NCBI RefSeq assembly: GCF_000017625.1
Contig: NC_009712.1
Span: 744,001-808,000, forward strand
Direction of reading: 5' to 3'
Length of the DNA stretch: 64,000 nucleotides
DNA from: Methanoregula boonei 6A8
GTDB taxonomy: Archaea; Halobacteriota; Methanomicrobia; Methanomicrobiales; Methanospirillaceae
The position numbers and the translations under genes are program-made. This document shows, piece after piece, positions 13,347-62,805 of the stretch. How positions within the stretch are numbered: position 1 is the stretch's first letter; the number at the start of each line of letters is the position of its first letter. A model generated the notes under the pieces. It was not told the origin of the DNA. It did not search any database and saw nothing but the letters and a program-made list of their open reading frames with translations.

Positions 13347-15032
13347 TTAACGTTTCTTCTGCTGCCGTGCGAGGAGGACAAGGGCCCCGGCACCCAGCAG
13401 TGCACCCAGGGAAAGTAGTGTGGGAACGGGCGATTTTTTGGTCGTGGGGACCGGTGCAGGAACAAGCGTTGCCTGGACCTTCACGGTCTCGCCGTTCCCG
13501 GGCCACTGCGTGAGGCTTGTGGTATACGGGATATAGCCGGTGCTCTCGACCCGGACGGTCTGGACAGGTGTTCCTGTAGTTGACACGGTCACATAGAGTA
13601 CGCCGCTCGTGACATTTCCTTCATAGGCATTGTCGAAATATACCGGGGCGCCGTTCACGTTTGCGTACACCGCGATTATCCCCTGGCCGGAGCCAACGGG
13701 TTGCGGGGACGGATAGAACGCCGGGGAATAAAACGAGACCCGGCCGGCGCTTGTCGTTATCCGCTGCACATCATCGGAGTACCCACTCAGCGTGGCCTTG
13801 AGCGTGTAGGTGCCGGGGGAAAGACCCGTGATGGTGAGCGGGGAGACACCCTGGTATACGCCGTTTAGATAAATCGCTGCGCCGTCCGGGGTCGACTGCG
13901 CAAAGATTGCGCCGGTATTTGCCGGATTGGGCAGGGACTGGAGGACCGGCGAGTAACTGGTAGTCTGGCCCGAAGTAACCGTGATGGTCCGGGAGTCTGC
14001 GGCATAGCCGCTCAGGTAGGCCATGACCGAGTACGTGCCGGGGAGCAGGTTGTTGATCGTGCGCGGCGAGGTCCCGTACGATACCCCGTTCACGTAGATG
14101 GTTGCCCCGGCAGGGGATGACTGGGCGTAGATGGAGCCGAGCGTTCCCGGCGGGTTGGGCGAGGGCTGGAGGGACGGGTAATATCCGGTGGTCTGGCCGG
14201 AGTATACCGTGATCGTGCGCACATCGGTTGTGTAGCCGCTCATGTAGGCCATAACCGAATAGGTGCCCGCAAAAAGGTTGTTGATGGTGACCGGCGCAGT
14301 CCCGTAACTATCGCCGTTTACGTAGATCGTAGCCCCGTACGGGACGGACTGGGCATAGATCGCGCCGTTGCTCATTACCTGCCCGTTCACCGTAACAATA
14401 TCATACTGGGTGATCGTATCCGAGCCGTACTGGTTGCTTGCAGTCAGGGTCACCGTGTATGTGCCCGGGTCTGTATAGGTGTGGGCTGGTGAGGCAGTCG
14501 TACCTGCACTGGAACCATCGCCAAAGTCCCAGTACCACATGGTCGGGCTGTTAATGGATGTGTCCGTGAACTGGACGGTAAGCGGTCCGTTACCGGAGGT
14601 AGGAGAGGCCGTAAAACTGGCAACCGGCGCGTACGGCCCCGGGACCGGTGAGGTGGTCTCAGCCGTTGTGACAGTATCCGTCGGCATTACCGTAGGTACA
14701 GAAGTTTCCTCGGTCGTTGGAGCGAGGGTTGGCGTCTCTGTGGTCGGCACAGTGGTCTCTTCAGTTGTGGGCGCTATCGTTGGATTCTCGGTTGGTTGCG
14801 TGGTCACTTCAGTTGTAGGAGCAATGGTCGGCTCCTCGGTTGGCACCGTGACCGGCTCCATCGTGGGCTCGGTCGTGGTGTCGGTACCGGATATGTCCGA
14901 GGCTCTTAACGCCGTAATACCGGATGCCCCGGAAGAGAGGGTGGCAGTCCCGGCCTGTGACTCTGCGGTTGCAAACGGCAGGCAGAGAAGACAGAGCAGG
15001 AGTACCAGGGAAAGAATAGTACTGTATTTCAT
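13347..15032 (-). CDS. Surface protein with PKD domain and three PEGA repeats
   Basis: A 561-residue secreted protein. It has a signal peptide (residues 1-24) and a long Thr/Glu/Pro linker made of APTTEE-like units (~50-135). One PKD domain follows (~137-220, with WDFGDGS). Three PEGA units come next, each opening IYAQS or IFAQS and carrying TIYVNG or AIYLNG and GTYSVMAYLSGY (~224-440). Another beta domain precedes a C-terminal membrane helix ending in RQQKKR. The architecture is typical of methanogen cell-surface adhesion or scaffold proteins. The repeated PEGA units are close enough to suggest recent internal duplication. Probably displayed on the cell envelope. Confidence 0.88.
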   Translation of the reverse strand: MKYSTILSLVLLLCLLCLPFATAESQAGTATLSSGASGITALRASDISGTDTTTEPTMEPVTVPTEEPTIAPTTEVTTQPTENPTIAPTTEETTVPTTETPTLAPTTEETSVPTVMPTDTVTTAETTSPVPGPYAPVASFTASPTSGNGPLTVQFTDTSINSPTMWYWDFGDGSSAGTTASPAHTYTDPGTYTVTLTASNQYGSDTITQYDIVTVNGQVMSNGAIYAQSVPYGATIYVNGDSYGTAPVTINNLFAGTYSVMAYMSGYTTDVRTITVYSGQTTGYYPSLQPSPNPPGTLGSIYAQSSPAGATIYVNGVSYGTSPRTINNLLPGTYSVMAYLSGYAADSRTITVTSGQTTSYSPVLQSLPNPANTGAIFAQSTPDGAAIYLNGVYQGVSPLTITGLSPGTYTLKATLSGYSDDVQRITTSAGRVSFYSPAFYPSPQPVGSGQGIIAVYANVNGAPVYFDNAYEGNVTSGVLYVTVSTTGTPVQTVRVESTGYIPYTTSLTQWPGNGETVKVQATLVPAPVPTTKKSPVPTLLSLGALLGAGALVLLARQQKKR

Positions 15033-24170: not shown

Positions 24171-24254
24171 GATCCGGAACCAGTTTTCCCTAATTTTTCG
24201 CATAAAGCAAGAGATCCTTTAGTATCCCGGGAGGGTCGGGGCAACCTATTTTGA

Positions 24255-24520
24255 GATTGATCGGTCTGACCGGTTTTTTTGCGGAGCGCTAAGTGGGGAG
24301 GGGGAGGCTACCTTTGACTCATGCCGCAGGGGGCCGCCTCGATCATTTTTGAAATTTGCCGGTCCGACCGGTTTTGAAAACGATCGGACCGATCACCATG
24401 TTCCGTCTGAAGATTTAGTGGAAGCACAGGCTGTGATACTGGAATACATGGGGTCACCCTGACCGATTTTAAAATTGATCGGGACGATCATTTTTTTTGC
24501 AAAGCGCTAAATGGGGGGCA
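24255..24520. repeat. Paired hairpin/T-tract module, copy 1
   Basis: Two similar units lie 216 bases apart. Each has a GATCGG-type palindrome (GATCGGTCTGACCGG at 24258; GATCGGGACGATC at 24477), a T run, GC(G/A)(G/A)AGCGCTAA and a G-rich (A/G)TGGGG. Between them lie CCGGTCCGACCGG and the perfect palindrome GATCGGACCGATC. A related module with the same order and ~221-base spacing occurs at 61300-61610. Function unknown; a structured RNA or protein-binding array is possible. Confidence 0.6.
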
Positions 24521-24540
24521 GGGGGGTTTTGTAATTTTTT

Positions 24541-24690
24541 AAAGGGGGTGGGTGCTGATCTTTTTGGGAATGTTGAGCTGCTGAGCCGGACATTTCCGGA
24601 AATATTTGGCCAAGCCGGTTTGATCTGGATTGGTTGATAGGGAGATCGTGGGGGCTATCTCCCCCACATCCCCACGAACGAGAAGATCCG
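24541..24690. repeat. Non-coding element with relative near 62.7 kb
   Basis: Landmarks shared in order with ~62541-62805 are GGTGC followed by TTTTT, GAGCTGCTGAG (CAGCTGCTGAG there), TTTCCGGAAAT, GGTTTGATCTGGA, ATCGTGGGGGCT and CCCCCACA followed by CCCCACGA. The copy here is shorter and has a single block where the other has tandem repeats. The GTGGGGG and CCCCCAC ends form a hairpin. Confidence 0.6.
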
Positions 24691-24759
24691 CCCCCCCCAC
24701 GGCGAAAGAGTGCACTTCTGATATTCACTTGCCCCACAGTCTGAAGAATCCTGTTTTAT

Positions 24760-47456: not shown

Positions 47457-49049
47457 CTACAGTTCCCTGCGTCCCTGGTGTCTCCTGCCACCGGACCTCC
47501 CTCCCCCACCACGACGGAGGAGAAGGGTCACGACCACAATTACCAGGATCACAATGCCAATCAGGGGCAGCATCCATGACGGCAGGGTGCCCTGGCCTCC
47601 CGGCGGGGCCGTAGTTGACGTTGTGACCGGGGTTGCAGTCTGGAGCGTCGCTGTTACGACAGGAGTTGGCGACTGGCTGATCACCTGGGCAGGTGTTGCG
47701 GTCACAAGAGGTGAGGTAACGGTGATGTATCCCGGTACTGTGGTCGTATTGCGGCCCCCGGAATTCACCGCTGTCAGGCTGACCGAAAAGGTGCCGCTTG
47801 TGGTATAGGTGTGGGTCGGGTTCTGATCAGTACTCTGGGAACCGTCCCCAAAGGACCACTGCCAGCCGATCGGAGCATTCCCCGATGTGTCGGTGAATTG
47901 GACTGTCAGCGGGGCGCTTCCCGACTGGACATTTGAAGAAAAGGAACTGGCCGGAGGGGACAGGGCATTGGTGACATTGATGTATGCCGGCATGGTACTC
48001 GTGTTGCTGCCCGCCGTATTCGAAACCCCAAGGGAGATAGCATAGGATCCTATGGAGGAAAAGGTATGGACCGGGTTCTGGAGGGTGGAGGTACTCCCAT
48101 CCCCGAAGGTCCAGTACCATGCGGTCGGGGTGTTGTTGGAGGTGTCGGTGAACTGGACACTCAGGGGATTGATGCCGGCAGTGACATTAGAGGTAAATGA
48201 TGAAAAGGGGGTTGCCGCATTCACGGTGATATATCCCGTCTGGGTTGCCGTGCTGCTCCCCACTACATTGGTGGCGGTAAGGGAGACGGTATAGGTGCCC
48301 GCCGCAGTATACGTGTGGGTCGGGTTCTGGAGAGTAGAGGTTCCACCGTCCCCAAAGGACCAGACCCAGGAGTTCGGAGAGTTTGTCGAGGCATCCACGA
48401 ACTGGACGGTCAGCGGCCCGTATCCCGAAGTTGCCGTTGCCTTAAAGAGAGCTGTCGGCGCCGCAGTGACCTGGGTTATGGTGATGTAATTGGCCAGGGA
48501 CGTTGTATTGCTCCCTGCGGAGTTTGTGGCAGTAAGGGTGACCGTATACGACCCTTGTGAGGTGTAAGTATGCACGGGATTTGCGCCACCTGAGGATCCC
48601 CCGTCCCCAAAGGACCAGACCCAGGAACTTGGGGAGTTTGTGGAGGTATCCAGGAACTGCACGGTGAGGGGAGGGGAACCCCCGGAGATATTGGTGACAA
48701 AAGAGACCAGAGGTACGGCCGCAGCCTTTATTGCGGTGACATATCCCTGGTACGTGGCGGTATTGGTACCTGCAGAGTTTGTCGCGATCAGGGTTACCGT
48801 GTACGTGCCCGGTATCGTATAGGTATGGGCAGGGTTCTGGAGGGTAGAGATCCCGCCATCACCAAACAACCAGGTCCATGTGGTAGGGGAATTCTGCGAT
48901 GAGTCAACGAACTGCACCGTGAGCGGAACCGTTCCTGTGGAGGCGTTCGAGATAAACGATGCCACCGGCACCGCCCCCATGACCGGGGCGATAAGAAACA
49001 GGAGGGAAACAAAGAGGAGGAAAATCCAGAGCACATGTTTTGTTTTCAT
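47457..49049 (-). CDS. Surface protein with five PKD domains
   Basis: A 530-residue protein with signal peptide (KTKHVLWIFLLFVSLLFLI), then five PKD domains (~28-108, 115-200, 203-285, 288-370, 375-455), each with WxFGDGG or similar (WTWLFGDGG, WVWSFGDGG, WYWTFGDGS, WQWSFGDGS). A Thr/Pro stretch precedes a C-terminal membrane helix and a basic Gly/Arg tail (RRGGGGRSGGRR). PKD arrays form rods on archaeal cell surfaces and mediate adhesion or S-layer-like functions. The repeats are nearly identical in places. Confidence 0.9.
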   Translation of the reverse strand: MKTKHVLWIFLLFVSLLFLIAPVMGAVPVASFISNASTGTVPLTVQFVDSSQNSPTTWTWLFGDGGISTLQNPAHTYTIPGTYTVTLIATNSAGTNTATYQGYVTAIKAAAVPLVSFVTNISGGSPPLTVQFLDTSTNSPSSWVWSFGDGGSSGGANPVHTYTSQGSYTVTLTATNSAGSNTTSLANYITITQVTAAPTALFKATATSGYGPLTVQFVDASTNSPNSWVWSFGDGGTSTLQNPTHTYTAAGTYTVSLTATNVVGSSTATQTGYITVNAATPFSSFTSNVTAGINPLSVQFTDTSNNTPTAWYWTFGDGSTSTLQNPVHTFSSIGSYAISLGVSNTAGSNTSTMPAYINVTNALSPPASSFSSNVQSGSAPLTVQFTDTSGNAPIGWQWSFGDGSQSTDQNPTHTYTTSGTFSVSLTAVNSGGRNTTTVPGYITVTSPLVTATPAQVISQSPTPVVTATLQTATPVTTSTTAPPGGQGTLPSWMLPLIGIVILVIVVVTLLLRRGGGGRSGGRRHQGRREL

Positions 49050-61184: not shown

Positions 61185-61774
61185 ACTGCTAGGTTGGTGC
61201 GGACGGTTTTTTAGGATTGTGATGAGGCACCGGGTCCCGGGGAGTGATGTGAGTGAATGGGGAAGGGAACCATGCCGGATCCGGGCAGAGGGGGGTAGTC
61301 TCCCTTCACATGAGATCAAGAGGGTCCGGCTTTTTTTTGTGCGGACCCCTGGATGGGGGGGAGGGGGGTACTTTCGATCCGCGAATCGTGAAAGGGACTC
61401 CCCATTCAGATCACGGTAAGGGGGTCCTCCTGATCATTGAGTAAAGAGAGACCTCCGATCCCCTCTCGCCTGACATTTCAGTGGAAACAGGGGTTTTGAA
61501 ACTGAAACCGGCACAGGGGGTCCCCTTTAGGATCGGGTCAAGGGGGTCCGGCTTATTTTTTGCGAGACCCCCGGATGGGGGGGGAGGGAGGTGATCGATT
61601 TTTTTACAAGGGGGGTGGGCGGCCGGGTTTTTTTCCGGAATGGCGGGGTGACCGATCATGGTGACAGGTTGGGGTGCCCTGTCAGCAGATTAGGGAGGCA
61701 GGGAAAAAGACTGATGAAGGGCCGGCAATAATACTAAAACAATTACGGATTACAAAAGGGCTGGATTCAATCTT
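61185..61774. other. Non-coding repeat region
   Basis: No gene is visible in this G-rich stretch. It contains the second paired hairpin module (61300-61610), followed by a spacer to the nucleotidyltransferase gene. Confidence 0.6.
61300..61610. repeat. Paired hairpin/T-tract module, copy 2
   Basis: Two units 221 bases apart each have AGNGGGTCCGGCTT, a T run, and a pairing GGACCC or GACCCCC, then GGATGGGGGG. The stems differ in sequence but keep pairing: GGGTCCG with CGGACCC at ~61321-61347, and GGGGGTC with GACCCCC at ~61542-61572. Between them lies a segment related to the one at 24.3-24.5 kb (CTGA followed by AGTGGAA and CAGG). Confidence 0.6.
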
Positions 61775-62540: not shown

Positions 62541-62805
62541 TCAGGAATCTTTGGCAGCGGAGGTGCATATTTTTAGGGATTTTCAGCTGCTGAGTTGCTC
62601 TTTTTTTGAAAATCTTTCACTGAGCAATAGATTTTTTTTTCAAAATCTTCAGCTCATGTGCGACACTTTTTTGAAAATCAGCGGCTCACGACCCACACTT
62701 TTCCGGAAATCTGCGGTTCGGTTTGATCTGGAGAATGTTGTGGGGATATCGTGGGGGCTGTCGCCCCCACACCCCCACGAGCGAGGAGTGCCGCCGCCCC
62801 CGACG
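62541..62805. repeat. Element with tandem ~33-bp degenerate repeats
   Basis: The middle (~62582-62715) carries about four units of roughly 30-38 bases, each with CTGAG or CTCA, a C-A-C motif, a T-run and GAAAATC or CGGAAATC. The final part is GGTTTGATCTGGA and ATCGTGGGGGCT followed by CCCCCACA and CCCCACGA. It shares ends and order with 24541-24690, but that copy lacks the tandem expansion. Confidence 0.6.

Follow-up and report, generated by a model that had tools for sequence, protein, structure and literature searches.

Two places in a 64,000-nucleotide stretch of the Methanoregula boonei genome (the window; positions 744001-808000 of the single-contig, 2,542,943-bp (2.54 Mb) sequence) carry similar pairs of units, each made of a hairpin, a T-run and a G-run, which raises the question of what these paired structures are. 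The preliminary description had placed them at 24 kb and 61 kb, and both are present there.

When DNA of the 24-kb locus was searched against its own genome, 12 other long matches were obtained (best non-self E-value 8e-51); the 61-kb locus gave 4 other matches (best non-self E-value 7e-84). Since many genomic copies are found from each locus, the relation between the two is not a chance one, and they almost certainly belong to one dispersed repeat family. A joint profile of its two subfamilies, A and B, recovered 18 full-length copies, all with E-values of 1e-44 or lower, and about six fragments; the 24-kb and 61-kb loci are two of the 18. Cut to common borders, each copy is 308-314 bases long. 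Subfamily A contains 13 copies, including the 24-kb locus (mean column identity 82%), subfamily B five, including the 61-kb locus (85%), and identity is 73% when both are aligned jointly. Divergence among copies amounts to about 25-30%, yet length and spacing vary by only a few bases. Every one of the 18 copies lies between genes, no coding gene overlapping any of them according to a simple codon-score gene finder, and the flanking genes may be oriented either way. The literature and databases searched, including the literature on Methanoregula repeats, contained neither a named family nor a previous account of these intergenic elements. The repeat is a previously unnamed non-coding element of about 310 bp, restricted to this archaeon and its close relatives. 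A protein-coding reading was discarded, since no coding ORF overlaps the copies and 1-base indels separate them, and a terminator or leader role was discarded because of the mixed orientation of flanking genes. The two window copies contain the following features:

24233-24544, + strand: full-length copy of subfamily A, 312 bp (genome DNA and profile searches)
24244-24304, + strand: unit 1 of the 24-kb copy, with hairpin arms, T-run 24274-24280 and G-run (direct-repeat alignment)
24361-24390, + strand: central hairpin of the 24-kb copy, helix H3 region, GGTCCG...CGGACC, the best-covarying helix (covariation test)
24414-24444, + strand: conserved core of the 24-kb copy with two ORB-like boxes, TTTAGTGGAAG and ATACTGGAATACATGGGGTC, the latter scored at 24434 (ORB matrix, core alignment)
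start 24451, + strand: closing helix P4 of the 24-kb copy, GGTCACCC (covariation test)
24462-24525, + strand: unit 2 of the 24-kb copy, with hairpin, T-run 24491-24498 and G-run (direct-repeat alignment)
61301-61610, + strand: full-length copy of subfamily B, 310 bp (genome DNA and profile searches)
61316-61369, + strand: unit 1 of the 61-kb copy, with stem GGGTCCG/CGGACCC at 61322-61348 and the T-run in its loop (direct-repeat alignment)
61477-61507, + strand: conserved core of the 61-kb copy, TTCAGTGGAAACAGGGGTTTTGAAACTGAAA, ranked 3 by the ORB matrix in the whole window (ORB matrix)
61538-61592, + strand: unit 2 of the 61-kb copy, with stem GGGGGTC/GACCCCC at 61542-61572 (direct-repeat alignment)

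Each copy follows one plan: unit 1, a middle part and unit 2, the units each having the order hairpin, T-run, G-run and lying in direct orientation. The two units are direct repeats of each other; their alignment scores are well above those of shuffled sequences in both window copies and exceed the shuffled maximum in 17 of the 18 copies. Where both runs are readable, the spacing from T-run 1 to T-run 2 is 217-220 bases in A and 221-225 bases in B, the spacing described for the two loci being kept in the other copies. A third T-run follows about 42 bases after T-run 2, and this last run closes the element. The stems GGGTCCG/CGGACCC and GGGGGTC/GACCCCC had been contrasted as differing in sequence with pairing retained. 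Both of them are in the 61-kb copy, one per unit, so that the contrast is not one between the two loci; in the 24-kb copy the T-loop stems are poor and the main stems are GATCGG/CCGATC-type arms.

Within any one element, the hairpin arms are built on a common palindromic word: GATCGGTCCGATC for A, GGGGGTCC for B and GGTCACCCTGACC in several copies of the relative G032. Type C, a third and longer form, has a TTGGGC-type word. The core sequence is kept throughout. With the same core and TTGGGC-type hairpins, type C extends over about 650 bp and is present in the relatives G003 and G009 and in this genome (loci L059, at G000:C1:1082311-1082457, L068, L074, L078, L082 and L109). Recombination between direct units may have produced a solo unit (L029) as well as the tandem copy of a relative, which has the form U-M-U-M-U (G032:C155).

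Several other repeats were noted. Intergenic regions are filled with short interspersed modules of the type TTTTTCCGGAA...CAGCTGCTGAGCCGGAC, which directly adjoin the elements (for example L026:2780-2845); as they do so at many copies, element borders are mosaic. A second dispersed repeat, GTGGGGGCTGTCGCCCCCACA...CACGAGCGAG, occupies 24616-24698 and 62719-62801 of the window (the pair being 80% identical), with similar sequence beside L019 and also in G032 and G003. Five tandem coding repeats of 249-255 bp are located at 47833-48926 of the window, with a further copy at 14506.

Conservation of the hairpins was assessed in 25 copies, mainly from two species, aligned by a sequence-only model that was not fitted to structure. 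The full-length RNAalifold consensus was ambiguous because arms of different hairpins are mutually complementary, and local helices were therefore tested instead. Five of them are paired in 86.7% of cells, and 14 of 39 pairs have changed on both sides. The number of doubly changed cells was 28, compared to 11.8 ± 4.6 in shuffles, a control that kinship of the copies can inflate; the pair counts are the safer measure. None of the 500 shuffles reached the observed value and all slid controls were lower, in agreement with the conserved structure that had been proposed for these loci. The central helix H3 covaries best, with 8 of 10 pairs doubly changed, and the closing helix P4 has an A-U to G-C swap at one pair. 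The hairpins are thus kept by matched, compensatory mutations.

Such structure could belong to a dispersed family of non-coding RNAs transcribed from the + strand, with the T-runs serving as archaeal terminators. Covarying helices, T-runs at fixed places with the last one ending the element, low folding energy and an excess of G-T over A-C cells (77:50) are all consistent with RNA. Covarying pairs, however, are a criterion that does not separate RNA from single-stranded DNA; the mild G-T excess comes down to 29:23 in distinct pair events, which is no clear skew; and folding relative to shuffles is no worse for the minus strand than for the plus strand (z -2.9 and -2.3, respectively). The elements have no match in Rfam at gathering or permissive thresholds, a comparison of upstream flanks revealed no 5′ sequence common to all copies, the orientation of neighbouring genes is not fixed, and copies are gained or lost between close species. 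The non-coding RNA suggested by the preliminary description is therefore unlikely. We conclude that the strand tests do not favour RNA and that the structure is kept mainly at the DNA level; a DNA-level mobile repeat, rather than an RNA, is the likely identity of the family.

The distribution of the repeat was determined in 100 related genomes, the window's own included, with Methanoregula MAGs as genus-level relatives. Strong matches were limited to this genome, G032, G009 and G003, and weak ones were found in G019, G002, G020 and, in another genus, G059. A core-only profile detected the same four genomes at E 0.001 or better, and, right at this threshold, a short match in G036. The elements are missing from most species of the genus. 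A pattern search of plasmids, phages and viral contigs yielded nothing related, and when bacterial and archaeal genomes were scanned with the core pattern, the matches were mostly unrelated, those in Methanoregula being STF2_46, fen_34 and SPRUCE.2016.34.

Element locations turn over among these close relatives. The L026 site measures 545 bp in this genome, compared to about 115 and 104 bp at the empty sites of G009 and G032. The extra sequence is composite and larger than the 312-bp repeat, and no clean target duplication is seen at this single site. At the W61 site, this genome has the subfamily B copy, G032 a tandem A-like copy, G009 a type C element in the opposite orientation and G003 other G-rich palindromes, while the remaining relatives read have no core-bearing element. 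The L022 site is common to this genome and G009; on the far side of its copy, G009 has sequence that matches the surroundings of the inverted copy L020, an arrangement such as an inversion between both copies would give.

While a dispersed, lineage-restricted repeat with hairpins is an ordinary finding, the best-kept piece of this one is unusual, being a double box that resembles the Orc1/Cdc6 origin recognition box (ORB), from which replication of the chromosome is started. The core reads TYCAnnnGAAR, followed 21 bp on by ACTGGAA, and so contains two same-direction TGGAA-type boxes. TYCAnnnGAAR is kept in almost all of 37 aligned cores, whose retrieval by pattern partly favours conserved ones. 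It is similar to the dyad of archaeal ORBs and mini-ORBs, TCCAnnnGAA, and is accompanied by the second core box, ACTGGAAgAAAAGaGGTC. As a reference, we used 83 ORBs from 30 cdc6-linked origins of relatives; their consensus, TCCAnnnGAAAyAAAGGGG(T), agrees with the published Methanomicrobia motif TCCA[GC]T[GT]GAAA[CT][AG]A[AT]GGGGT (PMC4164010).

Judging by the dyad only, several cores from several subfamilies score within the range of true ORBs, and the core of G059 reaches the ORB maximum. With the full ORB matrix, the best site per copy scores about -1 to 13 bits versus 20-37 in real ORBs, due to the missing GGGGT string, which nearly all of the 83 local ORBs carry; core box 1 lacks it, and box 2 has it only in part (GAGGT; GGGGT in W24). 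In nearly all copies this top-scoring site coincides with one of the core boxes or overlaps the core; the frequency of such scores in the background ranges from about 1e-4 to less than 1e-5 per position, and the two copies in the window rank in the top ten sites of the 64 kb, although scores of different copies are not independent given their shared ancestry. In the reverse search, origin and cdc6 loci totalling 138 kb gave only two hits with a core model, both on ORBs. Near-matches to the published pattern numbered nine, one of them a core, against six for the reversed control.

The oriC beside cdc6-1 of this genome has three ORBs, and the cdc6 genes are at genome positions 406 and 646260, neither of them adjoined by a repeat copy. 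The two core boxes point the same way at a distance of 21 bp; ORBs of oriC are separated by about 170-280 bp, and one of them is typically on the other strand. Full ORB membership was rejected on the G-string: with GGGGT missing or degenerate and the copies not located beside cdc6 and an AT-rich unwinding region, as archaeal ORBs are, the core is ORB-like and not an ORB. Two further ORB matches lie away from oriC, an exact one near tRNA genes (G000:C1:221057-221076) and one with a single mismatch in an AT-rich intergenic stretch (G000:C1:603088-603107). From the sequence resemblance, binding of the core by an Orc1/Cdc6 protein is possible, though doubtful.

Were it bound, the copies might be chromosomal Orc1/Cdc6-binding stations, either titration sites or dormant origins, that are under selection for replication control and not mobile. 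The reciprocal similarity of core and ORB points in this direction, as do the same-direction TGGAA boxes at 21-bp spacing and the precedent of Haloarcula, in which ORB clusters with negative control of an origin have been reviewed (PMC4010727). However, the G-string that is degenerate in the cores is essential at haloarchaeal oriC1 (PMC4010727), the elements are absent from most species of the genus, and their positions are neither conserved nor clustered around the origin (Rayleigh p 0.34). We consider such fixed stations improbable.

Comparison with known repeat classes bears on the mobile-element module of the preliminary description: dispersal, site turnover and lineage restriction favour it, though neither a Y1 transposase nor terminal inverted repeats nor a clean target duplication turned up. 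Inverted alignment of the ends scores below direct alignment in all 18 copies, far below in most, and a search for a Y1-family transposase partner (PF01797) in the own genome was negative at E 0.001, with positive controls. REP/BIME palindromes are likewise dispersed, intergenic, present in many copies per genome and arranged in paired units, but our repeat has direct rather than alternating units, is about 310 bp in length, contains a long conserved core and occurs 18 times, in a genome without a RAYT/Y1 transposase. MITEs and PATEs are also short, non-coding, dispersed and present or absent by species, while the copies described here are old and divergent and are without terminal inverted repeats or a detected target duplication. 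That the copies are REP/PATE-like relics of an IS200/IS605-type (HUH, Y1) transposon, with direct end hairpins recognised as single strands, would fit the direct-orientation hairpin units at both ends and the absence of terminal inverted repeats and a clear target duplication, but has a slim chance given the missing Y1 transposase, the boundaries that are not sharp and the composite insert at the empty site.

Taken as a whole, the explanation that we find probable is a dispersed, non-coding DNA repeat that is non-autonomous and confined to one lineage, is or once was mobile, and has an ORB-like core. Its copies would have spread by past DNA-level mobility, either transposition or recombinational spread, the spreading unit probably being part of a larger composite, and present-day movement or collapse may proceed through recombination between direct units. 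The hairpins would act as single-stranded or cruciform DNA, and the core would be a putative protein-binding box, most likely for an Orc1/Cdc6-type protein. If such a protein does bind the core, the copies may be accessory initiator-binding loci, with possible roles in initiator titration, as dormant origins or in initiator-assisted copying of the element. A more specific proposal seems quite unlikely: the dispersed chromosomal elements would bind the archaeal replication initiator through their two ORB-like boxes and exploit it to spread or persist, and replication might expose their hairpins in single-stranded form.

Even without Orc1/Cdc6 binding, the family provides more than 30 diverged hairpin elements as natural material for the study of palindrome evolution, and its copies are rearrangement markers in the Methanoregula lineage. 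Should Orc1/Cdc6 bind the core, a peat methanogen would have nearly twenty initiator-binding sites off its origin, and initiator titration, dormant origins and initiator-dependent mobile DNA would become testable in archaea.
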